NCBI RefSeq assembly: GCF_032884065.1
Contig: NC_088872.1
Span: 39,437,979 to 39,501,978 of the forward strand
Length of the DNA stretch: 64,000 bases
Reading direction: 5' to 3'
From: Artemia franciscana
Lineage: Eukaryota; Arthropoda; Branchiopoda; Anostraca; Artemiidae
The notes under the pieces are model-generated. The model did no database searches. It was not told the DNA's origin and saw only the letters and a list, made by a program, of their open reading frames with translations. Made by a program: the position numbers and the translations under genes. Of the stretch, positions 14,946 to 54,205 are shown one piece after another. Positions within the stretch are counted from its first letter, which is position 1, and each line of letters opens with the position of its first letter.

Positions 14946-15013
14946 AGGGGCTAACAATGGCAGGGTGTGTAATTGATTGATTGTAATTGGGCTAACAATG
15001 GCAGGGTGTGTAC
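14946..15013. repeat. 24-bp direct repeat at the broken end of the capping pseudogene
   Basis: GGGCTAACAATGGCAGGGTG plus TGTA occurs at about 14948-14971 and 14990-15013. The second copy abuts the last homologous base of the capping-enzyme pseudogene. The preceding GGCTCAGTAGGCACGGGCCT looks like the end of a short DNA transposon, so it may mark an insertion that truncated the gene. Confidence 0.5.
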
Positions 15014-15934
15014 AGATTCGACTGTCTGCTTAGAGTTTGGAAATAACTTGTCAAACCTTTGCCGCACAAACTTCCAAATCGATTCTCCATACGAAGTTTT
15101 ATCAAAGCAACACTCAATTATTTTGCCATCATTGTTTTTCCAATTTATTTCTCTTTCCAATTTAACGCTATTTTGTAAGAAATTTACTTCCTTCCCATAT
15201 TCCAACACAAGTAAAGAGCCATTTTTTCTTGGCAATTGCCCACATTTACGGACTTCCTCAATTTTTAGCCTAAAATCAGCAGTGTTGACGTCTTTCCATT
15301 TTAATAGTCTCAACCATTGGCCACAGTTGTATGACTCATCAACTGGCTGAAATATGAGCCCGTCAGTATTATGTGTCAACTGTTTAAAGAAAGATCCACC
15401 TTTGAACACGTTATGACTGTCTTCGAACTTGAAGTACTCCTTCTTTGTTATTCTGAAGGATTCTGTTCCTGTTTTTATTAAGTTTTTTTTTTGTAAATGT
15501 TCATTGCTCTGTAATGTCATCCCGAATGCAGTCCAATCGCATATTGAACGGTAAAGAGCCAATTTTTTTGCCATCATGCGATATAATACCATAGACGAGA
15601 AAATTATACCTGCTCACTTCAAGACCGGACTTCTTGCCCTTCCATTTATCAAGCACTTATTAGCCGTCTAAAAACGTATCCTTTAGTTCATTCATCATTT
15701 TGTTTGAATAAAACTTTGCAGACACTTCATAGATTTTATAATCTCTGTCACAAAGGTAAGTTTTTTCACCTTGAATCAGCATCATGAATCTTGTTCCATC
15801 AGCTTTCCATGTGATCTGATATTTATATTTTTTTAAAAATTATATGTTATCCTGTGTTAAAGAAAGAGGTTGACCCCCAGGGAAAGTGCTCAGTTTTTCC
15901 CAGCCACAAAGTTCGGCAATTTTTTTTTGTACAC
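15014..15934 (-). pseudogene. mRNA capping enzyme pseudogene, guanylyltransferase half
   Basis: Minus-strand continuation of the copy at 20759-22075 beyond the inserted LINE. It matches the guanylyltransferase domain of the intact gene at 49.1-52.1 kb: WKADGTRFMMLIQ near 15800, a nucleotidyltransferase-type TDGLIFQPVDESYNCGQWL at 15365-15308, then FRLKIEEVRKCGQLPRKNGS. There is a stop where the intact gene has LLDGELVLDKW (near 15660), a frame change near 15600, and a rearranged stretch near 15500. It ends abruptly at 15014, about 40 codons before the intact C-terminus. Non-functional. Confidence 0.85.
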
Positions 15935-16113
15935 CTTTTTGGATATAATCATTAATACAGTAAGACAATTGTTATTCTCTGGCTGGTCATTCAAGGTGTT
16001 AGCATCTCGCTAAAGTCAACCGTGCAAAACCTGTTTTTTTGTATAAGATTATTGTTGATAGCAAGGAATGGTCTAAGGTGATTTTAACTAGATCGTAATT
16101 ATTGATTTATTTA

Positions 16114-17373: not shown

Positions 17374-20350
17374 TTGGATGATAATTGCATTGGGGATAGA
17401 CTGAGATACCTTGAGTCTAACCCTTTTGATTTTTCCATATTCCAGAGCCATGATAAATTTTCAGGAAATAAGATAAATGACGGTGGGCTAATTAACTTTC
17501 CAAATTGTAAATATAAATTACCTTCCGAAGTTTCTGATCTTCCCAGTACCTGTGTTGTGAGAACAGGATTTTTAAATTTTAGGGTTTTTTTTAGTTCACA
17601 GGATGATCTTATTGATGTAGTTCATAAATTATCTTGTCATGTCGTTGGATTCTGTGAGACTTTTCTTACAGACCTGACTCCTCAGGTTGTTTTTCCTGGA
17701 TATCAATTTATTTTTAAAAACCGATCGACTAGGCGCCAAGGTGGTTTAGCAGTAATAGTTAAAGAAGGTATCTCTTTTCGACGCATTGCAAATCTGGAAG
17801 GTTCTCATGAGGAAATGCTTTTTGAAGTAATGGTGACTGAAATTAGTCTTGGAAAAAACGATGTTTTTTTGCGTAGTATACCGACCGCCTTCTTCTCCAG
17901 TCAAATCTTTCCTCTCTAAACTCCATGATATTTTGCATCAACCCCATTTTCAAAATAAAGATGTAATCCTTTCCGGAGATTTCAATATTGACCTTCTAGA
18001 AGCTTCAAATGAATCTTCTGTTGAGTTATTGTCTTCTTGCTTTTCTGCGTGTCTGCTTCCTACTTGCCTGATACCTACAAGAATTTCACCTAGTCCTGCT
18101 TCTCTCGTTGATAATATTTTTACATCTTTACCTATTCAAGCAAATTTTGCTGTTTTAAGTGATATATCGGATCATTTCCTGCTGGTTTCAGATTTAGCTT
18201 TTACTTATAAAATACCACAGGTAAGTAAGGAACGTCAAGGACGGTTAATAAATAAAATAACATTAAAGCACCTGAATGAAAGCCTTGGACTATTGGATTG
18301 GCAGGAGATAATATCCACGGAGGATAAAGATATGGCAACTGATAATTTTCTAAGAAATTTCAATTGCTGCCTTGATTCTAGTTGCCATTTGTTACGATTA
18401 AAATTTGCAGAGAAAAATTTCCTATAAGGCCATGGATAACGTCTGGAATTTTGATATCAGTTAAGAAAAAAAATCAGTTATTTAAAAAGCAGTTAAAGAA
18501 TCCAACTGATTATAATATTAAAAATTTTAGAATTTTCAAAAATAAATTAACCACAATGATACGTTTGTCGAAACAATTGTATTATAAAAAGTCTTTCGAA
18601 GAAGCTCAAAATTCTCCTCGCAAAACGTGGTCTTTAATTAATTATTTTATAAAAAAAGAAAGTAAGTCTAATTTTCCTGAAGTTATTAGTTTAGAAGATG
18701 GTTCGACTACTAATAAATCGGAGAAAGTGGCTGATATTTTGAATACTTATTTTGCTAAAATAGGAGAGAAAATTGTTTCATCAGTAATGAACCAGTTTGA
18801 TTCACGTAGTAATAAACATTTTTCTTCATACCTTCCATCTCCTCAAAGTAATTCCGGGCCTATTTCTCATTCTGAAATAACAAAAATAGTGTGTGATCTA
18901 AATCAGGATAATTCAGCGGGAATTGAAACTGGAGTTTTCCCATCTGCTTTTAAAGAAGTGCGGATAGTTCCGCTTCACAAAGGTGACTCTCCTGAAAATC
19001 CATCAAATTACCGCCCTATTTCTATTTTGTCAGTATTTTCTAAAATACTTGAGAAGGCAATTTATAAGAGGTTTTATGACTTTCTTAAATCGTCTAATTT
19101 CTTCACAAATTTCCAGTTTGGTTTCCGGTCTGGACACAACACTGAACATGCTATCGTTGCTCTCATCCAATATATTCATGAATGCTTAGATAGAGGTGAA
19201 ATTCCAGCAACAATATATTTAGATTTTAAAAAAGCATTCGATACAATATCCCATTGTATTCTTTTTAGTAAATTGGATAATTGTGGTGTGCGTGGACCGG
19301 CGTTGGATCTAGTTAAATCTTATCTTGATAAGAGAAAGCAACGATTAGATGGAGGCAATTTCCTCTCTTCACCTGTACATCAGTCTTCGAAGGTTGGGGT
19401 ACCTCAGGGCTCTGTCCTAGGTCCTCTCCTTTTTTTAATTTATATAAATGATTTTCACCGCGCTTTTACATCCCCGTGTCTCAACACACATTTTGCTGAT
19501 GATACGGCAGTTTCAATTTCTGAAAAGAATGACGAGGAGTTGGTGACAAAACTGAATACTGCATTTTCTAATGTTCTTGATTGGTGTTCTTCAAATTTTA
19601 TTGCTTTGAATGTATCAAAAACAAATTTCATAATTTACGGCAGAAAGTCAAATATCTGCCCTCGTATTACCCGAGTTACTTCTTCAAAGTATCTATTATC
19701 AATATCTCGGGTGAAAATGACAAAGTACCTTGGACTTGTGATTGACGAAAGCTTATCTTTTAAAACACACATTCAAAATCTACGATTAAAGATTTCAAGG
19801 TATGTTGGTTTAATGCGAAGGTTAAAGCTTTGTTTGCCCTACTCTGCTTTACGAAGTATTTATTTTGCTCTGATTCAGACTAATATTAATTATTGTTCTC
19901 TAGTATATTTATCTACATTTAAAAGCCATATTAAACCAATACAGATTTTACAAAATAAAGCCCTAAGAATCCTTAAACTTTTTATTCCATCACCTATTGA
20001 ACTTCCAAATAAGTCTTCTACTGCATCTTTATATACTTATCTAGATATACTTCCAATCTCTCAACAATTTGCTTTTGGAGCAATTCTGTTCAAATTATGA
20101 CATTAAGAAATTACCGCCATATTACCTCCATCAAAGTTTGTTTTCCCAATCACAAGATTTACATAATTATAACACTCGACAAAAAAAGGATATTTACATT
20201 GACAAGTATAATACTGAGAGATCTAAATTCGCTCCGTTTGTGTCAATAGCTCGGTGCTGGGATGCTCACAAGGCTCTTATTGATAAATTTTCCTCTATCC
20301 ATTTAATAAAAAGGAAACTTAAATTTCATTTAGTTCAGGATTATTTTTAA
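17374..20350 (+). pseudogene. LINE ORF2: endonuclease and reverse transcriptase, frameshifted
   Basis: Endonuclease: VVGFCETFL, GGLAVIVKEGISF, then after a shift near 17865 CVVYRPPSSPV, catalytic-type GDFNIDLL (near 17979) and SDISDHFLLVSDL. A second shift lies near 18413. Reverse transcriptase: NYRPISILSVFSKILEKAI, FQFGFRSGHNTEHAI, YLDFKKAFDTISH, VGVPQGSVLGPLLFLIYIND and the catalytic THFADDTAVS (near 19492). A third shift near 20090 leads to NYDIKKLPPYYLHQSLF and the stop at 20350. Between NQDNSAGIE and TGVFPSAFKE about 30-35 expected residues are missing in frame. Two of the shifts sit at A/T homopolymers. Confidence 0.8.
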
Positions 20351-20725: not shown

Positions 20726-20758
20726 GCGATTAATAAATAAATGAACTTGAACTTGAAC

Positions 20759-22075
20759 AACGCCTTCAACGTATTTGACTCCTTTTGGCTCAAAAGGTTT
20801 CTTTTCCCATCTCTTCTGAAGTTCGAATATATAGGAATCCTTAATTATTCCAGGAGGCCGTTTTGATCCGAAAAAAATTATTGCATATTCTAGCTCATTT
20901 TCTTTATACACAAAAATTCGTTTATCCACAAGATATGAGATAATCATAAATCCTGTCCTATTGAATTCATGTGTACAGTGGACAGCTACGGTACTGGTTG
21001 AGTTTTTATCGAGAAAGCCATCACATAAAGTTTTAAACCCTTGATATTGTTCCATAGAAGGTGCATCTGAATGACCTTCACACCGTATTTTCTTATACAG
21101 AATGCCAGACTCTCTTATAACAGATGAGTCATAAAATTTATCTTCGTCTGCGTTTGTCAAGTCGATCAATAGGCCTACTTTTACCTGTTTTGCTATGTCC
21201 AAAAGCATTTTGGACGTAAATTTTTCACTCTTTTGAATGGGGTATATGGTATCCAATGGAGTCGTAAAAGCTATAAAATTATAAATGGGTTCCCTGCTAC
21301 ATCTTTCACTCCTAATTCACCTTATCCGCTTTAGATCTTTTGGATTCACAGGATTGCTACCTGGATCACTCATTGACGGTTCAAGTCTAGAAACTTTTTG
21401 ACCCGGTTCTTCGCTTATTTGAGGAGAAATACATTCAGCGTACACAGGTACTGATATTCTCAGATTTTCAAAGTTAGAGCTCCTAATTTTACTTTTTTTT
21501 AGATTAACAGCCTTGTTACCTGGGTCACTCATTTTTTTCAGAAGGCCGTTTCATTGGTTGTTCAAGTTTAAGAAAGGCTGCAGCTGGTTCATCACGTAAT
21601 CCAGCCTTTACTGGTACTGACACACTCGAATTGTCAAAGCTCAAGTTAAGAATTTTTTTGTTTTGGATTCACAATCATGCTACCAGGGTCACTCATTACT
21701 TCAGAATGCTGTTTTCTTGATTCTTGCGAAAAGTTTACATCTGGTTCATCAAGTAACTCCGCAGAAACGCATTCGGCATTGACTGGTGCTGGCTTGCTCA
21801 AATTTTGAAAGCTCGAGTCAAGAATGTTTCTTTTGTTTGTATTCACAGTCTTGTTACCTTGGTCACTCATTTCTTCAGAATGGGGTTTTATGTGTGATTA
21901 AAGTCTAAGATTTTTTGCACGTGGTTCATCACTAAATCCAGCGTTTACTGGTACTGACGCACTTAAATTGTCAAAGCTCATGTTAAGAAATATTTTTTGT
22001 TTTGGACTCAAAATCATGCTACCTGGGCCACTCATTTCTCCATAAAGCCGTTTTCTTGATTGTTTGGAAAAGTTA
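20759..22075 (-). pseudogene. mRNA capping enzyme pseudogene, N-terminal repeats and phosphatase half
   Basis: Reading down from 22075, repeats matching units 3-6 of the intact gene are recognisable (GSMILSPKQK near 22020, NKTVNTNKRNILDSS near 21850, NKAVNLKK near 21515, GSNPVNPKD near 21350), followed by the triphosphatase domain (21256-20760). The P-loop reads HCTHEFNRTG: the Gly of HCxxGxxR is replaced by Glu. IAKQVKV lacks the LFKINDK insertion of the intact copy. Frames break between repeats. The 5' end is cut at 22075, where a Helitron fragment begins; the 3' side is cut by the LINE. Inactive. Confidence 0.85.
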
Positions 22076-22084
22076 ATTCAAAGA

Positions 22085-34149: not shown

Positions 34150-37100
34150 TCATGTCTAAAATTTGTCTAAGTTGCAAGGCCTTGAAATTCAATGGTGAAA
34201 CAATGGGAATGTGTTGCGCCTCAGGAAATGTTAAACTTCCTCTATTGGCTGCACCACCAGAGCCATTGAAGACTTTCCTTACTGGAACTGCGTCAGAATC
34301 TAAGCGTTTTTTATCACAAATCAGAAAATATAACTCATGTTTCCAAATGACTTCGTTTGGAGCCCAAATCGAAAATCCAGATCAATTAATGTCTACTTTC
34401 AAAGTAAAAGGGCAAAATTATCATAGAGCAGGGTCCCTTCTACCATTCTCAGGCGAGAATCATAGATTTTTACAATTGTACTTCATCAGTGATAGAAATT
34501 CTGAATTGAATGTGCCTTGTGAAATTTCTCCCAACGTTAAAAGGACAATCGTTTCTCAATTACAACATCTTTTCCACGAAAATAATAATTTAGTGCGTCT
34601 GTTCAAAACAACCATCGATTTGATGCCTACTGATACGCATAAAATTGTTTTTTCCGCTGACAAAACGCCTCCTGGCCAACATGTGCGTAGATACAATGCT
34701 CCAACTATCGACGAAGTGGCAATCGTTATGGTCGGTGATCAGTTTTTACCTCGAGATATTATTCTTCATAAGCGAAACGCTCAGTTGTTAAGAATTGCTG
34801 GAACTCATCGATGCTACGATGCAATACAGTATCCTATATTTTTTGGGATGGAGCCGACGGCTATCACTTTAATATTAAATTGGTTAATCCAGCCACTAAC
34901 AAAGAAATGAATAAGAAATGCAGTGCAATGCATTATTATTCCTATAGACTAATGACTCGGCAGGATGAAGAAAATTATATTTTAAAATGCCGTGAATTGT
35001 TTCACCAAGTCATCGTTGATATGTATGCTAAAATTGAATCAAAACATTGGCTATATATCCGCCTGAATCAGACCAAGCTCCGCTCTGAACAATACATTCA
35101 TTTGCGAGATGCAGTTGTAAATGACGGTAATACCACAAACGTTGGAAGATTAACAATTTTATCTTCGTCATGCTGGCAGTCCTCGTCATATGCATGAATA
35201 TGCTCAAGATGCTATTGCGTATGTTCGTCTCTATGGTCGTCCAGATTTATTTATTACATTTACATGTAATCAATCTTGGGACGAGATACAGCAGCTTTTA
35301 CTTCAAGGACAATCGGCGGTTCATAGACATGACATTACGGCCCGTGTTTGCCGGCAAAAGTTGAAATTACTGATAAACTACATAGTAAAACTTGAAGTGT
35401 TTGGGTCAGTGCGATGCTGGATGTACTCAGTGGAATGGCAAAAACGAGGTTTGCCACACGCACATATACTAATCTGGCTACATAAAAAAATTACTTCGAA
35501 CGAAATTGATGATGTGATTTCCGCTGAAATACCTGATGAAAATGTCGATAAGGGGTTACATGATATTATTGTAAAAAATATGATACATGGACCTTGCGGT
35601 GCACTGAACGAAAATTCACCATGCATGGCCAAAGGAAGGTGCACAAAGCAATATCCTCGACTTTTTGTATCCAACACAATTACTGGCAATGATGGTTACC
35701 CACAATATAGAAGAAGATCTACTGAAGATGGCGGTAAAACAGCAATAATAAAAAAGCGTAACGGTACCACCATCGAAGTAGATAACCAGTGGGTTGTTCC
35801 ATATTCCCCATTATTATCAAAAATATTTAATGCACACATAAACCTTGAATACTGTAACTCCGTAAAGGCAATCAAATACATATGTAAATACGTAAACAAA
35901 GGCAGTGACATAGCAGTTTTGCCATAGAACGATAGAGTGAAATACTCCATCGAAAACAGTTAGAGACGTCAGATATGACTTTTTATTTTACATCAGAAAT
36001 TTATAACTACACTTTAGTTATTATAGAAGATTTGTGCGTACGTATGGCAAACAAACCTCTTCAGGATTTGGGAATGCCTTCACCTAACCGTATCGCTGCT
36101 GTTTCGACATGTGTAGAATTGGATCGTGAACAAAGTTACAGTACGATTGATCTATTGTCGTATGTACAAAATAACACTTCCAAGCTAACGTCGTAACAAA
36201 AAGACATTTATGATACGATAATGCATTGTGTCGATAACAACGTTGGAGAAATTTTCTTTTTGGATGCGCCAGGAGGTACTGGTAAAACGTTTGTGATAAA
36301 ACTGATTCTGGCATCAATTTGATCAAAAAATGATATAGCGTTAGCAGTTGCGTTGTCCGGAATAACCGCAACATTGCTGCCTGGTGGAAGAACTGCTCAT
36401 TCCGCTTTGAAATTGCCTCTGAATTTGCATTCTACAGAAACTCCCACGTGCAATATTTCCAATTCATCTGGGATTGGTAAAGTATTGCAACAATGCAAAC
36501 TTATTATTTGGGATGAGTGCACAATGGCACACAAAAAATCGCTCGAGGCTCTGGATCAATGCTTGAAAGATTTGCGAGGGAAGCCGAAACCCTCTGGCAG
36601 CACGTTAATATTGCTTGCGGGAAATTTCAGGCAAACATTACCTATAATACCTAGATCAACCCCTGCAGACGAAATGAATGCTTGCCTGAAAAATTCTAAT
36701 TTATGGGCACACGCAAAAACATTAAAATTAACTACAAATATGCGTGTCCGATTGCAAAACGATGACTCTGGTCAAATATTTTCAGATCAATTGCTGGCAA
36801 TTGGAAACGGAAAGCTCCCAGTAGACTCAATTTCAGGACGAGACCAGGCAGTCCTTTACAAGTCAGTCGACACAGTTTTGGAACCAAATGAAGCGGTTAA
36901 TTATCCATCTGAATTTTTAAATTCCGTGGATCTTTCAGGGTTTCCACCACACGTGCTACAACTAAAAATAGGAGTACCAATAATACTTTTAAGAAATATC
37001 AACCCACCAAAGCTTTGCAATGGCACGCGACTTGCCGTAAAAAAAAAACAATGTAAAACCTAATAGAGGCCACAATCTTGACAGGGCCTTTTGAGGGTGA

Positions 37101-37223
37101 GGCTGTTCTTATTCCTCGCATTCCCATGATTCCAACGGATCTGCCTAAATTTAAAAGATTGCAATTCCCAATTCGATTAGCATTTGCAATCACCATTAAC
37201 AAAACTCAAGGTCAATCATTAGA
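34150..37223 (+). pseudogene. Helitron Rep/helicase copy A, decayed
   Basis: Begins at the zinc-finger region (MSKICLSCKALKFNGETMGM), so the N-terminal repeats are missing. The nuclease HUH block LPHAHILIWL (about 35450-35480) and the tyrosine region YICKYVNKGSD (about 35875-35910) are present. A 700-bp deletion then joins to LFYFTSEIYNYTLVIIEDLC (about 35975). Walker A GGTGKT (about 36275) and WDECTMAHKKSLEALDQC follow. There are stops near 36196 and 36321, frameshifts near 34850 and 35170, and a roughly 185-bp deletion near 36839. The last part stops at INKTQGQSLE, fused to the next element's 5' end. Inactive relative of the 37.4-kb gene. Confidence 0.85.
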
Positions 37224-37262
37224 ATATATAAAAATAAGTTGTCTGTCTGTGTGTCCGTCAGG

Positions 37263-37334
37263 TGACGTCATGTTTCTGTGTCGACTGACGTCATGAAGTT
37301 AGTTGTCGTCATTTTTGCTATGACGGTGACGTCA
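37263..37334 (+). promoter_or_regulatory. Three TGACGTCA octamers in the Helitron 5' leader
   Basis: Perfect palindromic octamers at 37263-37270, 37286-37293 and 37327-37334, between the 5' end and the ATG. TGACGTCA is the consensus binding site of CREB/ATF-type bZIP factors in animals. Most other 5' ends in this window keep at least one. Regulation is inferred, not shown. Confidence 0.5.
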
Positions 37335-37377
37335 TTAAAGATATTTAAGACATATATGTTCACGTAGAAATCTATTA

Positions 37378-40300
37378 ATGTTTAAGTTTAAAATGACTGA
37401 TGAACTTACAATGGCAAAAGCCGATGAAGATGCTCAAAGAGTCTATGCCAAAAAACTTGCTGCTGATAGAGAAAGTCAGAAAAGAAAGCGTGCCGAGGAA
37501 TCAAAAGAACAGCAAGGAAACAGGCTTGAGGCTGATAGAGAAAGAAAGAACAGAAAGCGTGCCAAGGAACTACCAGAGCAACGCGAAAGCAGACTTGCTG
37601 CTAAAAGAGAAAGTGAAAAAAGAAGGCGTGCCGAGGAATCACAAAAACAGCAAGAAATCAGGCTTGCTGCTGATAGAGAAAGTAAGAAAAGAAAGCGTGC
37701 CGAGGAATCACAAGAACAGCAAGAAATCAGGCTTGCTGCTGATAGAGAAAGTAAGAAAAGAAAGCGTGCCGAGGAATCAGAGCAACCTGAAAGTTATCGC
37801 CTGGCATTCAGGTACAGCCCAGTCGATGATTATAGCTTGAGTAGATGTGTTCAAATCGGGACAATGTCTAAAATTTGTCCCTATTGCAAGGCCTTGAAAT
37901 TCAATGGTGAAACAATGGGAATGTGTTGCGCCTCAGGAAAAGTTAAACTTCCTCTATTGGCTGCACCACCAGAGCCATTGAAGACTTTCCTTACTGGAAC
38001 TACGTCAGAATCTAAGCGTTTTTTGTCACAAATCAGAAAATACAACTCATGTTTCCAAATGACGTCGTTTGGAGCCCAAATCGAAAATCCAGATCAATTT
38101 ATGTCTACTTTCAAAGTAAAAGGGCAAGTTTATCATAGAGCAGGGTCACTTCTACCATTCTCAGGCGAGAATCATAAATTTTTACAATTGTACTTCATCA
38201 GTGATAGAAATTCTGAATTGAATGCACGTTGCGAAATTTCTCCCAACGTTGAAAGGACAATCGTTTCCCCATTGCAACATCTTTTCCACGAAAATAATAA
38301 TTTAGTGCGTCTGTTCAAAGCAGCCATCGATTTGATGCCTACTGATACGCATAAAATTGTTATTTCCGCTGACAAAACGCCTCCTGGCCAACATGTGCGT
38401 AGATACAATGCTCCAACTATCGACGAATTGGCAATCGTTATGTTCGGTGATCAGTTTTTACCTCGAGATATTATTCTTCATAAGCGAAACGCTCAGTTGT
38501 TAAGAATTGCTGAAACTCATCGATGCTACGATGCCCTACAATATCCTATCATTTTTTGGGATGGAGCCGACGGCTATCACTTTAATATTAAATTGATGAA
38601 TCCAGCCACTAACAAAGAAATGAATAAGAAATGCAGTGCAATGCATTATTATTCCTATAGACTAATGATTCGGCAGGATGAAGAAAATTATATTTTAAAA
38701 TGCCGTGAATTGTTTCACCAATTTGTCGTTGATATGTATGCTAAAATTGAATCGGAACGTTTGCTATATATCCGCCTGAATCAGACCAAGCTCCGCTCTG
38801 AACAATACATTCATTTGCGAGATGCAGTTATAAATGACGGTAATACCACAAACGTTGGAAGATTAATAATTTTACCTTCGTCATATGCTGGCAGTCCCCG
38901 TCATATGCATGAATATGCTCAAGATGCTATTGCGTATGTTCGTCTCTATGGTCGTCCAGATTTATTTATTACATTTACATGTAATCAATCTTGGGACGAG
39001 ATACTGCAGCTTTTACTTCAAGGACAATCGGCGGTTCATAGGCATGACATTACGGCCCGTGTCTTCCGGCTAAAGTTGAAATCACTGATAAACTACATAG
39101 TAAAACTTGAAGTGTTTGGGTCAGTGCGATGCTGGATGTACTCAGTGGAATGGCAAAAACGAGGTTTGCCACACGCACATATACTAATCTGGCTACATAA
39201 AAAAATTACTTCGAACGAAATTGATGATGTGATTTCCGCTGAAATACCTGATAAAAATGTCGATAAGGGGTTACATGATATTATTGTAAAAAATATGATA
39301 CATGGACCTTGCGGTGCACTGAACGAAAATTCACCATGCATGGCCAAAGGAAGGTGCACAAAGCAATATCCTCGACTTTTAGTATCCAACACAATTACTG
39401 GCAATGATGGTTACGCACAATATAGAAGAAGATCTACTAAAGATGGCGGTAAAACAGCAGTAATAAAGAAGCGTAACGGTACCACCATCGAAGTAGATAA
39501 CCAGTGGGTTGTTCCATATTCCCCATTATTATCAAAAACATTTAATGCACACATAAACGTTGAATACTGTAACTCCGTAAAGGCAATCAAATACATATGT
39601 AAATACGTCAACAAAGGCAGTGACATGGCAGTTTTTGGCTTGCAGACGGAAATCAAAGATTTCGACGATATCGTACAATATCAGGCTGGAAGATACATAA
39701 GCAGTAATGAAGCTGTTTGGCGAATTCTTTCATTTCCGATACATGAACGTAGTCCAGCTGTTCTTCACTTAGCGGTACATTTACAGAATAGTCCACGTGT
39801 TTATTTCTCGGAAACCAACGTGCAACAAAGAGCCCTGAATCCACCGGATACAAAATTAACAGCTTTTTTTTCGCTTTGCAAAAATGATTCTTTTGCAAAA
39901 AAACTGCTGTATACTGAAGTGCCTTCGTATTACACGTGGAATACTAAAAATAAAGTATTTGAACGTCGAAAACAGGGTATGCCAGTCGATGGCCAACCTA
40001 CCATCTTCAAAGATACCACGATAGGAAGACTCTACACCGTTCACCCCAATCAACATGAATGCTTCTTTCTACGCCTGCTTTTGTTGAATGTACCCGGTCC
40101 GACATCATTTGAGTATTTGAGAACTGTAAACGGTACTATACATGACACTTACCGTAGTGCTTGCGAAGCTCTGAATTTATTGGAGAATGACCAACACTGG
40201 GATAACTGCATCAATGACGCGTGCGAAACGTCAACCCCAAGTCAAATTCGTGCATTGTTTGGCATCATTTTAACAACTTGCTCTCCATCAGCTCCTACAG

Positions 40301-41892
40301 AGTTATGGGAAAAATATAAGTCAAAAATGTCCGAAGATATACTCCGTCGAAAACAGTTAGAGACGTCAGATATGACTTTTGATTTTACATCAGAAATTTA
40401 TAACTACACTTTAGTTATTATAGAAGATTTGTGCGTACGTATGGCAAACAAACCTCTTCAGGATTTGGGAATGCCTTCACCTAACTGTATCGCTGCTGTT
40501 TCGACATGTGTAGAATTGGATCGTGAACAAAGATAGAGTACGAGTGATCTATTGTTGTATGTACAAAATAACATTTCCAAGTTAACGTCGGAACAAAAAG
40601 ACATTTATGATACGATAATGCATTATGTCGATAACAACGTTGGAGAAATTTTCTTTTTGGATGCGCCAGGAGGTACTGGTAAAACGTTTGTGATAAAACT
40701 GATTCTGGCATCAATTCGATCAAAAAATGATATAGCGTTGGCAATTGCGTCGTCCGGAATAGCCGCAACATTGCTGCCTGGTGGAAGAACTGCTCATTCC
40801 GCTTTGAAATTGCCTCTGAATTTGCATTCTACAGAAACTCCCACGTGCAATATTTCCAAATCATCTGGGATGGGTAAAGTATTGCAGCAATGCAAACTTA
40901 TTATTTGGGATGAGTGCACAATGGCACACAAAAAATCGCTCGAGGCTCTGGATCAATGCTTGAAAGATTTGAGAGGGAAGTCGAAACCCTTTGGCAGCAC
41001 ATTAATATTGCTTGCGGGAGATTTCAGGCAAACATTACCTATAATACCTAGATCAACTCCTGCAGACGAAATGAATGCTTGCCTGAAAAATTCTAATTTA
41101 TGGGCACACGTAAAAATATTAAAATTAACTACAAATATGCGTGTCCGATTGCAAAACGATGACTCTGGTCAAACATTTTCAGATCAATTGCTGGCAATTG
41201 GAAACGGAAAGCTCCCAGTAGACTCAATTTCAGGACGTATACAACTACCTGCTGATTTCTGTAATTTAGTGACGTCCAAAAATGAATTGATTGAAAAAGT
41301 ATTTCCGAATATTCTAAAAAATTATAAAAATAATAAATGGCTAAGTGAAAGAGCGATTCTCGCACCCAAAAATATAGACGTCCACGAAATCAACAATATT
41401 GTTTTGACCAAGATTCGAGACCAGGCAGTCCTTTACAAGTCAGTCGACACAGTTTTGGAACCAAATGAAGCGGTTAATTATCCATCTGAATTTTTAAATT
41501 CCATAGATCTTTCAGGGTTTCCACCACACGTGCTACAACTAAAAATAGGCGTACCAATAATACTTTTAAGAAATATCAAACCACCAAAGCTTTGCAATGG
41601 CACGCGACTTGCCGTAAAAAAAAGAATGGAAAACCTAATAGAGGCCACAATCTTGACAGGGCCTTTTGAGGGTGAGGCTGTTCTTATTCCTCGCATTCCC
41701 ATGATTCCACCGGATCTGCCTTTTCAATTTAAAAGATTGCAATTCCCAATTCGATTAGCATTTGCAATCACCATTAACAAAGCTCAAGGTCAATCATTAG
41801 AAAAATCTGGTATAGATCTTAATACTGATTGTTTTTCCCATGGACAATTGTACGTTGCATGTTCGAGGGTCGGTAAACCTGACAATCTGTGA
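37378..41892 (+). pseudogene. Helitron Rep/helicase (RepHel), one in-frame TAG
   Basis: A 1505-codon frame interrupted only by TAG at 40534-40536 (codon 1053). Domains: K/R/E-rich repeats (codons about 20-140, AADRESKKRKRAEESQEQQE-type); zinc-finger-like CPYCKALKF...GMCCASG (from C167); HUH nuclease LPHAHILIWL with H599 and H601; two-tyrosine motif YICKYVNK (Y739, Y743); then a PIF1-like SF1 helicase with Walker A APGGTGKT, Walker B IIWDECTMAHKKS, LLAGDFRQTLPII, LTTNMRV, and [11 protein letters not shown]...[13 protein letters not shown]. Such proteins nick and copy one strand in rolling-circle transposition. The last roughly 20 codons are lost by a 24-26-bp deletion near 41890. Copy A has TAC where this copy has TAG. 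Confidence 0.9.
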
Positions 41893-47792: not shown

Positions 47793-48910
47793 TTACGATA
47801 TTTCGTTTCGTTTTTTGTTCATAGAAGATGATAATTCTGCACATATATTTTTTTTTAACAGAATTTGGAGTTCTTTTTCATACATCAAGTAATTTTTCAA
47901 AACTACTGGAACATCAAAACCTTGCATATTATTGAATATTTCGATAAGGCTTGTATCTCTGGTCATATAATCCCGGCAGATTGATTTCAACGTTGAAACT
48001 CTGAAATCATAGACTTTGAATGCCAGATTACACAGTTTTGCAAACCATTTCATATTTGATTTGAAATAAACATTTGCGATTATTCCTTCTAAATTTGTTT
48101 GTTCTACCAGCCAAGTAATAATTGAATTATACATTTTTTTTTTACACAAAACTCCCATCGGACCACAAAAGGCGTTGTTTTCAAGAAGATATTTTGACGT
48201 GGTAACATGTTTTTCAGAAAAAGCTAACATTAATGGAGTTTTCCAGTCAGAGTTTAAACTGTTTACATTTGAGCCATTTGAGATCAGCAGCCTACAAACA
48301 GCAACTTCTCCGTGCATAGCAGCCAAGTGTAATGGTGTGTTATTACAAAAATCGGCGGTATTTGTATTGGCCCCGTTTTGAATTAGAAACTCAACCATCT
48401 CTAGCTCTCCCAGCTCAGCAGCAGCATGTAACGGTGTTTGATTCAAAGAATTGGAGGTATTTACATTAGCACCATGCGAAATCAATAGCTTACAAACTGC
48501 AATCTTTTTTTGCATAGCAGTGTAGTAGAGTGGTGTGTTTTTATGTTCGCTTTGCTTAGCAGCCTTGTGTAATGGTGTTTCCATAAAATAATAATCGTAT
48601 GTATCTACATTGGCCCCATTTGCAATCAGGAGCTCACAAACAGCTACTTTTCCTTGCAAAGCAGCACAGTGAAGTGGTGTGCCAGAAAATCCAACGGCCC
48701 ATTAATGTTTGCACCGTTTAAAATCAATAGGTCACACAAAGGAATATTTCCTTGACATGCAGCAATTTGCAGTGGAGTTCTCCCCCAACGATCGGATGCA
48801 TTTACATTCGCACCATTTGTAATCAGTGCATTGCAAACAGCAACTTCTCCTCGCTCAATAGCAGGATGTAGACTCGGTTTTTCCGACATGTCCAATTTAG
48901 CGCTGTTCAT
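47793..48910 (-). pseudogene. Ankyrin-repeat protein with SOCS-box-like C-terminus, one frameshift
   Basis: Minus strand, start ATG at 48910 (MNSAKLDMSEKPSLHPAI), no introns. Six to eight ankyrin repeats are visible by their NGANVN-type ends and TPLHxAA starts (GRTPLQIAACQGNIPLCDLL, TPLHAAAELGELEMVEFLIQ, TPLHLAAMHGEVAVCRLLIS). A one-base shift near 48690-48705 breaks repeat 3 (GPLDF, then GTPLHCAALQGK in the next frame). The C-terminus has TLKSICRDYM and DVPVVLKNYLMYE, which fits the L..(I)C...P..LK.YL pattern of SOCS boxes in ASB-type ubiquitin-ligase adaptors. It is either a recent pseudogene or an intact gene with an assembly error. Confidence 0.7.
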
Positions 48911-48942
48911 AACTGAATAATACTAAGGCGTTTGCATTCTTA

Positions 48943-48952
48943 CTTTTATATA
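48943..48952 (-). promoter_or_regulatory. TATA box of the ankyrin gene
   Basis: TATATAAAAG on the minus strand, the same spacing to its ATG (48910) as in the divergent gene. Confidence 0.5.
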
Positions 48953-49067
48953 CTATAGCTTGAAATCTATATATAAATATATAATGATGTTAATATATGA
49001 CGTAAAATAATGATGTAAAAATATACTATGACGTTCACATATAAGCGATATGATGACATCATACCAT

Positions 49068-49077
49068 TATATAAAAG
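49068..49077 (+). promoter_or_regulatory. TATA box of the capping enzyme gene
   Basis: TATATAAAAG. A start site about 25-30 bp downstream would fall just before ATG 49110, which argues that the in-frame ATG at 49050, lying before the TATA box, is not used. Confidence 0.55.
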
Positions 49078-49109
49078 AAAAAATACAAATGCGTCAGTAT
49101 CATTTGCTT

Positions 49110-52052
49110 ATGAACAGTGCTAAATTGAAGATGCCAGAAAAACCGAGTCTGTCTTGCATCTCAAGGGGAAAAGTGGAAAAGAACAATCATAGAACAAACA
49201 AAAATTCCGTATCTATTGTCTACAATGATTCCCATGTTGCTGGAAGACAAGTTGAAAATGGCCGTACTCTTGCTGATTATAGCATACAGAAAAAATCAAC
49301 TCTTCACCGTATGCAAATAAAAGACACTGCTACTTCAAAAAATAAAACAATAACTGCTGAAGCGACTTCAAAAGACACTTCAGAAGCTTGGAATGATGCC
49401 ACCTTAAAGAAAGAGTCGCATATAAGCTCTACTAATAGAGTTTCTCAAAATCTGGCTAGTTTGGCGCCACCTGAGAGCGTGAAGGACCTGAAACAAAGGA
49501 ACGACCCAGGTAACAAGGCTGTGAATATAAAAAAAAGAAAAGTTTTTGACTTGAGTTCTCAAAATTTGAGTGTGTCAGCACCAGTCAAGGTCGAAAGTCT
49601 TTCCGCCCGATTACGTGATGAAGCAGATGCAAACATTACTAAAATTAAACCGCCCAAAAAACGCTCTTCTGAAGAAATTAGGGACCCAGAGAACAAGGCT
49701 ATGAAACCAAAAAAAAGAAAAATATGTGACTCAAGCTTTCTAAATTTGAGCGAGTCAGCACCAGTCAAGGCCGAATGTGTTTCTTCCCGATTACTTGATG
49801 AACCGAATGTAAACCTTTCCAAACAGTCAAGAAAACGGCTTTATGGAGAAATGAGTGGCCCAGGTAGCATGATTTTGAGTCCAAAACAAAAAATATTTCT
49901 TAACATGAGCTTCGACAATTTAAGTGCGTCAGTACCAGTAAACGCTGGATTTAGTGATGAACCACGTGCAAAAAATCTTAGACTTGAATCACACATAAAA
50001 CCCCCTTCTGAAGAAATGAGTGACCAAGGTAACAAGACTGTGAATACAAACAAAAGAAACATTCTTGACTCGAGCTTTCAAAATTTGAGCAAGTCAGCAC
50101 CAGTCAATGCCGAATGTGTTTCTGCGGAGTTACTTGATGAACCAGATGTAAACCTTTCGCAAGAATCAAGAAAACGGCCTTCTGAAAAAATGAGTGACCC
50201 AGGTAACAAGGCTGTGAATCTAAAAAAAAGAAAAATTAGCAGCTCTAACTTTGAAAATCTGAGAGCATCAGTACCTGTGCACGCTGAATGTATTTCTACC
50301 CAAATAAGTGAAGAACCGGGTGAAAAAGTTTCTAAACTTGAACCGTCAATGAGTGACCCAGGTAGCAATCTTTTGAACCCAAAAGATCCAAAGTGGATAA
50401 GGTGGATTAGGAGTGAAAGATGTAGCAGGGAACCCATTTGGAATTTTATTGCTTTTAAGACTCCATTGGATACCATATATCCCATTCAAGAAAGTGAAAA
50501 ATTCACGTCCAAAATGCTTTTGGACATAGCAAAACTTTTTAAAATTAATGACAAACAGGTAAAAGTAGGCCTATTGATCGACTTGACAAACGCAGACGAA
50601 GATAAATTTTATGACTCATCTGTTATAAGAGAGTCTGGCATTCTGTATAAGAAAATACGGTGTGAAGGTCATTCAGATGCACCTTCTATGGAACAATATC
50701 AAGAGTTTAAAACTTTATGTGATGGCTTTCTCGATAAAAACTCAACCAGTGCCGTAGCTGTCCACTGTACACATGGATTTAATAGGACAGGATTTATGAT
50801 TATCTCATATCTTGTGGATAAACGAGTTTTTGTGGATAAAAAATTTGAGCTAGAAGATTATATAAATTTGTTCAGATTAAAACGGCCTCCTGGAATAATT
50901 AAGGATTCCTATATATTCGAACTTCAAAAGAGATGGGAAAAGAAACCTTTTGAGCCAAAAGGAGTCAAATACGTTGAAGGCGTTGTTGGAGTTGAAGCTT
51001 ACAATATAAAAAAAAAAATTGCCGAACTTTGTGGCTGGGAAAAACTGAGCACTTTCCCAGGGGGTCAACCTGTTTCTTTAACACAGGATAACATAGAATT
51101 TTTAAAAAAATATAAATATCAGATCACATGGAAAGCTGATGGAACACGATTCATGATGCTGATTCAAGGTGAAAAAACTTATCTTTGTGACAGAGATTAT
51201 AAAATCTATGAAGTGTCTGCAAAATTTTATTCAAACAAAATGATGAATGAACTAAAGGATACGTTATTAGACGGCGAATTAGTGCTTGATAAATGGAAGG
51301 ACAAGAAGTCAGATCTTGAACTGAGCAGGTATAATTTTCTCATCTATGATATTATATCGCATGATGGCAAAAATATTGGCTCTTTACCGTTCAATATGCG
51401 ATTGGACTGCATTCGGGATGACATTATAGAGCCAAGAACATTGGCAAAAAAAAATAACTTAATAAAAACAGGATTAGAATCCTTTAGAATAACAAAGAAG
51501 GAGTACTTCAAGTTCGAAGACAGTCATAAGGTGTTCAAAGGTGGATCTTTCTTTAAACAGTTGACACATGATACTGACGGGCTCATATTTCAGCCAGTTG
51601 ATGAGTCATACAACTGTGGCCAATGGTTGAGACTATTAAAATGGAAAGACGTCAACACTGCTGATTTTAGGCTAAAAATTGAGGAAGTCCGTAAATATGG
51701 GCAATTGCCAAGAAAAAATGGCTCTTTACTTGTGTTGGAACATGGGAAGGAAGTAAATTTCTTACAAAATAGCGTTAAATTGGAAAGAGAAATAAATTGG
51801 AATAACTATGATGGCAAAATAATTGAGTGTTGCTTTGATAAAACTTCGTATGGAGAATCGATTTGGAAGTTTGTACGGCAAAGGTTTGACAAGTCATTTC
51901 CAAACTCTAAGCAGACAGTCGAATCTGTAATGCATTGCATAAGAAATCCAGTGTCAGAAGAATATTTAAAAATATTTATACAGGAAATTGTGAAAGTGTC
52001 GAAGGAAAGTGGAAGGATAGAGAGTCAAATCAAACCATTCGGAGCTGGATAA
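49110..52052 (+). CDS. mRNA capping enzyme (triphosphatase-guanylyltransferase), intronless, long repeat N-terminus
   Basis: The open frame runs from 49050, but ATG 49110 (MNSAKLKMPEKPSL) follows the TATA box and matches the divergent gene's start, giving 980 residues. Numbered from 49050: residues about 150-445 carry five or six 53-60-residue repeats (DPGNKAVNxKKRK...SAPVxAE...RLLDEP) with NLS-like KKRK; about 455-650 form the cysteine-phosphatase RNA triphosphatase, P-loop HCTHGFNRTGF with C573; about 660-980 form the guanylyltransferase, KADGTR with K695, then LLDGELVLD, YNFLIYDI, TDGLIFQP and LLKWKD. All catalytic motifs are intact. The enzyme caps nascent mRNA in the nucleus. Animal capping enzymes are about 600 residues and I would expect introns, so this is likely a retrocopy or otherwise acquired paralogue. 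Confidence 0.9.
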   Translation: MNSAKLKMPEKPSLSCISRGKVEKNNHRTNKNSVSIVYNDSHVAGRQVENGRTLADYSIQKKSTLHRMQIKDTATSKNKTITAEATSKDTSEAWNDATLKKESHISSTNRVSQNLASLAPPESVKDLKQRNDPGNKAVNIKKRKVFDLSSQNLSVSAPVKVESLSARLRDEADANITKIKPPKKRSSEEIRDPENKAMKPKKRKICDSSFLNLSESAPVKAECVSSRLLDEPNVNLSKQSRKRLYGEMSGPGSMILSPKQKIFLNMSFDNLSASVPVNAGFSDEPRAKNLRLESHIKPPSEEMSDQGNKTVNTNKRNILDSSFQNLSKSAPVNAECVSAELLDEPDVNLSQESRKRPSEKMSDPGNKAVNLKKRKISSSNFENLRASVPVHAECISTQISEEPGEKVSKLEPSMSDPGSNLLNPKDPKWIRWIRSERCSREPIWNFIAFKTPLDTIYPIQESEKFTSKMLLDIAKLFKINDKQVKVGLLIDLTNADEDKFYDSSVIRESGILYKKIRCEGHSDAPSMEQYQEFKTLCDGFLDKNSTSAVAVHCTHGFNRTGFMIISYLVDKRVFVDKKFELEDYINLFRLKRPPGIIKDSYIFELQKRWEKKPFEPKGVKYVEGVVGVEAYNIKKKIAELCGWEKLSTFPGGQPVSLTQDNIEFLKKYKYQITWKADGTRFMMLIQGEKTYLCDRDYKIYEVSAKFYSNKMMNELKDTLLDGELVLDKWKDKKSDLELSRYNFLIYDIISHDGKNIGSLPFNMRLDCIRDDIIEPRTLAKKNNLIKTGLESFRITKKEYFKFEDSHKVFKGGSFFKQLTHDTDGLIFQPVDESYNCGQWLRLLKWKDVNTADFRLKIEEVRKYGQLPRKNGSLLVLEHGKEVNFLQNSVKLEREINWNNYDGKIIECCFDKTSYGESIWKFVRQRFDKSFPNSKQTVESVMHCIRNPVSEEYLKIFIQEIVKVSKESGRIESQIKPFGAG
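49497..50400 (+). repeat. Coding tandem repeats, about 160-180 bp per unit
   Basis: Units begin (D/G of the DPG-type motif) at 49503, 49683, 49857, 50022, 50196 and 50355; spacings are 180, 174, 165, 174 and 159 bp, all multiples of three. Units 1, 2 and 5 carry KKRK; units 3 and 4 have KQK and NKR instead. The same repeats appear in both pseudogene copies, so the array predates the duplications. Confidence 0.85.
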
Positions 52053-52089: not shown

Positions 52090-54205
52090 GATCCTTAGCA
52101 GTATTTTGTCTATGTGTGTGTTTGTGTGTGTGAACAATGGAGAGACCCACCAATGAACGACCCTAATGAACTTCTGAACAAATGAATGACCTAGGTAACA
52201 AGGGTTTGATCCAAAAAAAGAAAATTTTTTAATTGAATTTTCAAACTTAGAGCGCGTCATCGCCTGCCAATGTCGAAAATCTTTCCGCCCGAATACGTGA
52301 TGAACTGGATGCTAACAATACAGAAATTAAACCTCCCAATTAAACGCCCTTTTGAAGAAATGAGTGAACCAGAGAACAAGGCTGTGAATCCAAAAAAAAA
52401 AAATGAAAAAATTGGGACTCGAGCTTTCAAAATTTGAGCGAGTCAGCACCAGTTAAGGCCGAATGTGCTTCTGCCCGATTACTTGATGAACCGAAAGCAA
52501 ATCTTTCCAAACAATCAAAAAAAAGGGCCTTGTGAAGAAATTAGGAACCCAGATAGCATGATTGTGAATCCAAAACAAAACAAATTTCTTAACATGAGCT
52601 TTAACATTTCGAGTGCGTCACTAACAGTAAGGGCTGTATTTCGTAGTGAACCAGGTGCAAAAGTTCTTAGACTCAAACCAACAATAAAGCCTTCTGGAGA
52701 AATGAATGACCCAGGTAACAAGGCTCTGTGAATAAAAAAAAAATTGTGGTTTGAGTTTTCAAAATTTGAACACTTCAGCACCAGTCAAGGTTGAATTTCT
52801 TTCCACCCGATTACGTAATGAACTGGATGCAAACATTACTAAAATTAAACCACCAAGAAATGCCATTCTGAACAAATGAGTGACCCAGGTAACGGGCTGT
52901 AGATCTAAAAAAAAGTTTTAGCTCTAGCTTTGAAAACCTGATCACATGAGTACCTGTGATCGCTGAATGTATTTCTCCCCGATGAAGTGATGAGCCGGAT
53001 AAAAACGTTTCTAAACTTGAACGGTCGATGAGTGATCCAGGTAGCAATCCTGTGAATTTGAAAGATCCAAAGTGGATTAGGTGGATTAGGAGTGAAAGAA
53101 GTGGTAAAGGAACCATATGTAATTTTATAGCTTTTAAGAATCCATTGGAATAACATTTACCCCATTGAATTGAGTGAAAAATTTACGTTCCAAATGCTTT
53201 TGGACATAGCAAAACGTTTCAAAATTAATGGGGAAACGGTAAAAGTAGATCGACTTGACGAACGCAGACGAAGATAAATTTTAAGATTTATCTGTTATAA
53301 GAGAGTCTGGCATTCCATATAGAAAAATACGGCGTGAAGGTCATTCAGATACACCGTCTATGGAACAATATCAAAATATTGTTTCATCTATCTTTTATCG
53401 TTTCTCGATAAAACTCAACCAGTGCCATAGCTGTCCAATGTACGCGTGGATCCAATAAGACAAGATTTATGATTATTTCATATCTTGTGGATAAACTAGA
53501 ACCAAAACAGCCTCCTGGAATAAATAAAGATTCCTATATATTCGAACTTCAGTGGAGATGGGAAAACAAACCTTTTAAGCCAACTGGAGTCAAATAAGTT
53601 GCAGATATTGGTCGAGTTAAATCCTACTATATAAAAAAATTGCCGAACTTCATGGCTGGAAAAGGCTGAGCAGTTTCCCGGGGGGTCAACCTGTTTCTTT
53701 ACCACTGGATAATATAGAACTTTAAAAAAATGAATATCAGATCGCATGGAAAGCTGATGGAACAAGATTTATTAATGCTGATCCATTACAAAATTTATTA
53801 AATCGCTACAAAATTTTATTAAACCGAAACGTATTTACTAAAGGATACGTTATTAGACGGCAAATTAGTGCTTGATAAATCGAAAGAGAAGACGTTACGT
53901 CTTGAAGAGATATATTTTTCTTGAATTAGATATCCTTTTCTCATCTATGATATCATATAGTACGAAGGCAAAAAAATCGGCTCTTCACCGTTCGATAAGC
54001 GATTGGACTACATTCAGCATGACATTATAGAGCCAAAAACACCGACCAAAAAATTAACTTAATAAAAAAAGGACCAGAATCCTTCAAAATAGCAAAGAAG
54101 GAATACTTCAAGCTCAAAGAAAGTCATAAGGTGTTCAAAGGTGGCTCTCTATCTTTAAACAGTTGCCAAATGCTCATATTTCAGCTAGCAGACGAGTTTG
54201 GGACA
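52090..54205 (+). pseudogene. Tandem capping-enzyme pseudogene
   Basis: Lies 40 bp after the intact gene, same strand. Repeats recur (MNDLGNKG near 52183, SESAPVKAECASARLLDEP near 52440, DPGNKAL near 52720, EPGAKVLRLKP near 52655), followed by decayed phosphatase (53030-53600; ESGIPYRKIRREGHSD-like near 53305, the P-loop region near 53440 lost) and guanylyltransferase (53640-54190; WKADGTRF near 53750). Many frameshifts and stops and several deletions. The promoter and first exon-like part with MNSAKL are absent. It is much more diverged than the inverted copy at 15-22 kb. Confidence 0.85.

Follow-up and report, generated by a model that had tools for sequence, protein, structure and literature searches.

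A stretch of 64,000 nucleotides from Artemia franciscana (contig NC_088872.1, positions 39,437,979 to 39,501,978), referred to here as the window, contains an intronless gene for a capping enzyme and, pointing away from it, an ankyrin gene. Both begin with the same block of TATA box, leader and first codons, which we call the cassette. This cassette is found at no fewer than 16 places in the 1.27-Gb genome, in front of at least five types of protein. A reading made from the sequence alone had proposed that one start cassette is common to a family of genes, and that a promoter together with a start had come to lie before a different gene; both proposals are supported, with capping, ankyrin, SNAPC2-like, F-box and Nup153-like bodies now found behind it. 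We consider it probable that these genes form a dispersed promoter-plus-start family, in which a block duplicated as DNA has been combined with exchanged bodies, mostly from processed copies of nuclear genes.

The inverted cassettes of the window

The divergent pair comprises the following features, with the basis of each in brackets:

49110–52052, plus strand: intronless capping-enzyme gene, 980 amino acids from MNSAKL (Pfam, motifs, frame listing)
49068–49150, plus strand: cassette arm of the capping gene, with TATA box, leader and first codons (sequence, arm alignment)
49068–49077, plus strand: TATATAAAAG box of the capping gene, 32 bp before the MNSAKL ATG (sequence)
48953–49067, no strand: 115 bp that separate the divergent arms; TGACGT cores lie at 48998 and 49029, and there is no full TGACGTCA box such as other family promoters have (sequence)
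48943–48952, minus strand: TATATAAAAG box of the ankyrin gene, 32 bp before its ATG (sequence)
48870–48952, minus strand: cassette arm of the ankyrin gene, inverted (arm alignment)
47793–48910, minus strand: ankyrin gene headed by the cassette, with one frame change near 48.69 kb (Pfam, frames)
49478–50384, plus strand: tandem repeat module of the capping gene, about 160–180 bp (55–60 codons) per unit, with KKRK-like basic stretches (self-alignment, homology)

The arms are 83 nt long and 82% complementary. They agree at 68 of 83 positions; when one arm was replaced by 20,000 first-order Markov versions, the highest agreement was 42. In both genes, TATATAAAAG is followed by 32 bp and then the ATG of MNSAKL, at 49110 for capping and 48910 for ankyrin, and the N-termini of the two proteins, MNSAKLKMPEKPSL and MNSAKLDMSEKPSL, have the common form MNSAKL(K/D)M(P/S)EKPSL over about 14 codons. 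Thus, the earlier observation that two divergent, unrelated genes share a TATA box, leader and N-terminal codons is borne out. Without gaps, the arms cover about −63 to +20 around the third in-frame ATG, and a gapped alignment extends through the AT-rich spacer at 70%. Among 14 aligned copies, the ankyrin arm is closest to the window capping arm (77% over −85 to +21), and the 12 other copies compared match it at 61–76%. Transcription is predicted to start at about 49096 on the plus strand and about 48924 on the minus strand.

MNSAKL had been taken as the start of both genes. The peptide is present in each, but in the capping frame another ATG lies upstream, at 49050, and from it the longest frame (P0001) runs for 1000 amino acids, and the start conserved across the family is the later M-S-E-K, whose first codon is ATG in 15 of 16 copies (the copy on contig C16 has ATA, with another ATG just after). 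Likewise, the ankyrin gene is headed by the cassette on the minus strand, as proposed, but its coding sequence occupies two frames.

The window capping protein matches the Pfam families DSPc, mRNA_cap_enzyme and mRNA_cap_C, and its best solved-structure match, in two stretches, is a 597-residue mRNA-capping enzyme. Both the phosphatase loop, HCTHGFNRTG, and the nucleotidyl-transferase motif, KADG, are kept, and the protein has everything that marks an RNGTT-type enzyme (DSP-type triphosphatase, guanylyltransferase, C-terminal domain, HCxxGxxR and KxDG). It differs from that type by the long N-terminal repeat module, which lies between the cassette and the catalytic domains, and by having no introns. 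The other capping copy headed by a cassette, on C14, departs from the type further, having lost the phosphatase and carrying arginine in place of the motif-I lysine, which is essential in guanylyltransferases. Its open stretch is 928 residues long (909 from M-T-E-K). Because the frame is open yet the catalytic lysine is changed, the sequence suggests a non-catalytic role for the C14 copy.

Cassette genes across the genome

Two DNA searches gave 12 places with the cassette, and a protein search with Nup153 gave 4 more; this count is a lower bound because the genome searches score best candidates. Every one of the 12 heads an open frame or a gene remnant, as do the 4 from the Nup153 search, so that the proposed search for the cassette upstream of other genes gave at least 16 places, all frames or remnants. 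The bodies are capping enzyme (two, on C10, the contig of the window, and C14), ankyrin (one, C10), SNAPC2-like (one, C2), F-box (two, on C15, with Pfam F-box-like at 1.4e-11, and on C3780, where it is broken), Nup153-like (four, on C14, C16 and twice on C4, with one of the C4 copies broken) and a decayed related set (six, five on C21 and one on C1). The decayed copies begin like the Nup153 copies and continue into minisatellite, and one of them matches the Nup153 copies at 89% over −204 to +54. Two on C21, at 14.406 and 14.435 Mb, were judged through their 99.9% identity to a third copy, their own frames being unlisted. In a tree of the cassettes, from a short alignment, the Nup153 copies of C4 and C16 group with the C21/C1 set (99), the two F-box copies pair (96), and the Nup153 copy of C14 joins at 71. 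A true pair of cassettes facing apart occurs only on C10, among the stretches examined, which are the window and others of 3–10 kb each. Recurring divergent pairs were considered and rejected: the matches on both strands at C2 and C15 are single cassettes hit by both query arms.

When the Nup153 copy on C4 is compared with solved structures, zinc fingers of Nup153 take the first four places (E from 2e-4 to 3.5e-3), and Pfam gives Zn_ribbon_RanBP at 1.3e-8. The C14 copy has no zinc-finger match of that kind and is linked to Nup153 by homology. The copies also contain other stretches that we take to be Nup153 motifs. A Nup153-like intronless frame at 35.58 Mb of C16 (L061), reported as 1739 amino acids, has many tandem, near-identical zinc-finger units. 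The C2 protein resembles SNAPC2, its match lying short of the family cut-off, and the name is tentative. On C2 at 24.14 Mb, a broken SNAPC2-like frame has only a weak relic of the cassette. A SNAPC2-like frame is also seen on C13, and two others, L073 (C19) and L076 (C16), of 597 and 598 amino acids, have a different start region in which they resemble each other.

In most copies of the cassette, a TATA element lies about 62 bp before the ATG, and boxes like TGACGTCA lie about 77, 93 and 150 bp before it. Exact boxes number 27 in the 4180 bp analysed from 19 promoters, which are those of 14 of the 16 cassettes and of five genes of a second group. The genes of this second group, which start with MRED or MREY, are located on C9 (two), C317 (with a broken start frame), C5 and C18. 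They contain the repeat module, three of the five have Pfam ankyrin repeats, and their boxes are arranged similarly to those of the cassettes, while BLAST finds no match between their promoters and the cassettes. The repeat module is matched also in the F-box genes and in the Nup153-like genes of C14 and C11, and it is found in long open frames on C1, C3, C5, C9, C18, C317 and other contigs. Seven proteins with the module were searched against Pfam, and three (L053, L054 and L057) have ankyrin repeats. The module may serve in nuclear targeting.

Are these genes maintained as coding sequences? Between the Nup153 copies, the ratio of nonsynonymous to synonymous rates (dN/dS) is 0.48 for C4 and C16 (p 2e-5, 455 codons), 0.55 for C4 and C14 (p 1.5e-6) and 0.76 for C16 and C14 (p 0.02), showing that these pairs are under purifying selection. 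For the two capping copies, the point estimates of dN/dS are 0.58 over the 341 codons of the guanylyltransferase part and 0.74 over all 890 codons. When the capping frame is simulated under neutrality, with substitutions only, 6.8 stops are expected at 5.5% divergence, and a single run out of 3000 had none; at 3% divergence, 3.9 stops are expected, and 2.1% of runs had none. In the genes themselves, the long frames have stayed open.

C8 holds a multi-exon capping gene, whose match is divided among three separate stretches spread across about 29 kb, whereas the window copy is a single frame. Similarly, the match of the multi-exon Nup153 gene on C6 is split into six stretches that span 27 kb, and each copy on C14, C4 and C16 consists of one frame. 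The introns of the parents are therefore absent from both kinds of copy, and the earlier idea that an intronless retrocopy had gained a start fits what we find. Furthermore, an exon of the C6 Nup153 gene appears to begin after ttttttgtag, with GGAATTTTC, and in three Nup153 copies the cassette ends right before ATTTTC, at or no more than one codon from this exon start. This junction fits the joining of the cassette to a spliced sequence.

The length of upstream sequence that is shared differs from pair to pair, and the shared part always includes the start. Three Nup153 copies share about 1.1–1.25 kb with one another and about 1 kb with the fourth. The extents are −412 to +271 for F-box and Nup153 C14, −182 to +12 for the SNAPC2-like gene and Nup153 C4, −81 to +108 for capping and the SNAPC2-like gene, and −63 to +21 for ankyrin and capping C14; the two capping copies have 108 bp of upstream sequence in common. 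These are the ends of BLAST matches, which shrink with divergence. That the extents vary by pair suggests copying at the level of DNA with exchange of bodies. The shared flank is longest in the Nup153 group, which may be the oldest home of the cassette.

Origin of the family

The mechanism that we propose starts from a cassette in which boxes of the TGACGTCA type and a TATA element are followed by a short leader, the conserved M-S-E-K start and a few codons; this cassette would move as DNA with variable lengths of the upstream region. It would have been joined to processed copies of the capping and Nup153 genes, and probably of SNAPC2, besides F-box and ankyrin bodies, and the bodies would then be exchanged by DNA duplication and recombination. 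Each gene presumably has the cassette as its working promoter. A second, inverted cassette would have come to head the ankyrin gene of the window, so that two divergent genes there have a single short upstream region in common. The resulting proteins, altered and probably nuclear, might have their role in the germline, possibly as parties to genetic conflict. This last role is a guess made by analogy; it is the one that we favour, speculatively, although we rate it as rather unlikely to be right. We are at least as doubtful of a bolder version, in which the cassette is a reusable chassis that repeatedly takes up processed copies of the core nuclear machinery, from mRNA capping, the nuclear pore and small nuclear RNA transcription to F-box proteins, gives them a switch like that of mobile elements, and so yields partly inactive, nuclear-targeted, interfering versions in the germline, as a selfish family or as its suppressors.

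Several results weigh against a dispersed family of promoters with exchanged bodies. Six of the 16 places belong to the one decayed set, and broken members include the ankyrin gene, the C3780 F-box gene, one of the C4 Nup153 copies and both other capping copies of the window. The bodies also occur without the cassette, since no cassette was matched in the stretch examined around a Nup153-like copy with the repeat module on C11, nor with the SNAPC2-like frames on C19 and C16. The Pfam match of the C2 protein to SNAPC2 is below the cut-off (E 0.0025, 18.4 bits against 25.5; E 0.0053 once the cassette part is removed), and the genome search revealed no SNAPC2 parent with several exons. No clear poly(A) tail is visible by eye after the stop codons of seven genes, where A runs reach about ten, so that retroposition rests on the missing introns. 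Between the two capping copies, dN/dS is 1.24 over 52 N-terminal codons, and the shared N-terminal peptide shows no constraint there. Finally, an exact TGACGTCA is missing from 4 of the 19 promoters, including the two in the window, and this palindrome occurs 31 times in the 55 kb of the window outside 45–54 kb (window 7068–55999). By context, these sites are mostly in repeats, and three precede a Helitron frame at 37378. The boxes are therefore not specific to the cassette family, the octamer being common elsewhere in the window; they may tie the family to the control of mobile elements.

It is unlikely, in our estimate, that the cassette belongs to a mobile element, such as a Helitron or a foldback element, whose promoter arose by chance or capture and whose cargo is the genes. 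Two Helitron copies are located at 34152–41892 of the window, the right-hand one with long open frames of 1052 and 424 amino acids, and it is the frame of a Helitron that the three boxes mentioned above precede. Helitron pieces also lie near other loci, long ones at C3780 (L024) and shorter ones in L022, L040, L041 and L074, as well as in the 22-kb region of the window (L030 and L034). However, five loci of 7–10 kb each (L021, L023, L025, L026 and L027) have no match to Helitron proteins, and common element ends were not found, the shared upstream extents ranging from about 63 bp to more than 1 kb. A tandem array with units of about 285 bp lies downstream of four cassette genes, with the same orientation at each (L021 to L024; for example, L022 7277–8827), and was considered as such an end. 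We rejected it, as it follows only four of the seven longer loci: it is missing from the window, L025 and L026, is upstream in L027, and is reversed near a Nup153 piece, L064. A LINE (long interspersed nuclear element) driven by the cassette was also rejected. In L025 on C21 (460–3886), a retrotransposon of the type without long terminal repeats (non-LTR) lies in a decayed cassette gene, and the frame continues into it from the cassette start; because L026 (C21) and L027 (C1) have the cassette and the minisatellite without the element, we read it as a later, 5′-truncated insertion.

A little less likely again is a local event, in which the start of the capping gene was duplicated in inverted orientation beside an old ankyrin gene. 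The closer match of the ankyrin arm to the window capping arm than to any other copy compared agrees with this, as does the broken state of the ankyrin gene, but a local event accounts for only 1 of the 16 places, and elsewhere the cassette heads other kinds of genes. An origin from integrated genes of a large DNA virus, with one type of viral promoter, is very improbable. Some large DNA viruses do combine ankyrin, F-box and capping functions; the capping protein, however, has the fused phosphatase–guanylyltransferase layout and matches an mRNA-capping enzyme best. The viral kind of source to which the earlier reading alluded found no support in IMG/VR, where the capping domain and one repeat-module protein were searched at a depth that reaches close relatives only, and neither had a relative. 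The five window frames given to Pfam, which are the frames scanned for viral content, are capping, ankyrin, Helitron and non-LTR proteins. We rate lowest the idea that the cassette is an ordinary, low-copy dispersed repeat that lies near genes by chance. Remote copies could escape genome searches of the kind used, but an ordinary repeat lying away from gene starts is not what the DNA searches returned: all 12 places are the starts of genes, frames or their remnants, and the start codon is kept in nearly every copy.

Known systems and other features of the window

In a study of Drosophila, nuclear transport genes duplicate through RNA intermediates, the copies are enriched in testis and have been proposed to evolve under meiotic drive, and, among 30 nucleoporins, Nup93 alone is duplicated (PMC8645118). 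The Drosophila retrogenes (Ran-like, Ntf-2r and importin copies) are like the genes described here in being recurrent, RNA-mediated copies of the nuclear machinery, which in Drosophila evolve fast. The word 'promoter' is absent from the main text of that study (PMC8645118), whereas the cassette family has one start for five protein types. Among the titles and abstract openings listed in literature searches, we found no description of this cassette.

Dox and Stellate of Drosophila and Orly of the mouse Y are multicopy or chimeric genes of sex-linked conflict, and the title on Orly describes a chimeric gene with bidirectional transcription. In their make-up, these are single chimeric lineages, whereas here one 5′ block is found on at least five protein types. 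The fusions of KRAB with transposases in vertebrates are comparable in that one N-terminal module is present on many bodies, which it reaches by splicing to a host exon. In contrast, the cassette genes share promoter DNA and start codons together, and they are intronless. New retrocopies mostly die for want of a promoter. One start block before five unrelated protein types could provide a direct system for studying how copies gain expression, and also how chimeric gene families grow. Furthermore, the capping, nuclear pore and perhaps small nuclear RNA transcription bodies resemble targets that are discussed in genetic conflict.

Separate frames with the capping-type phosphatase alone, without the cassette, are seen in L038 (C8), L040 (C13) and L041 (C459). 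Besides the divergent pair, the window contains broken capping copies:

52177–54197, plus strand: broken tandem capping copy, without the cassette start (homology)
20741–22077, minus strand: broken capping copy, 5′ part with repeats and phosphatase (homology)
15011–15935, minus strand: 3′ part with guanylyltransferase, probably of the same broken copy (homology)

A non-LTR retrotransposon, with frames at 17861–18427 and 18556–20100, lies between the 5′ and 3′ parts of the last copy.

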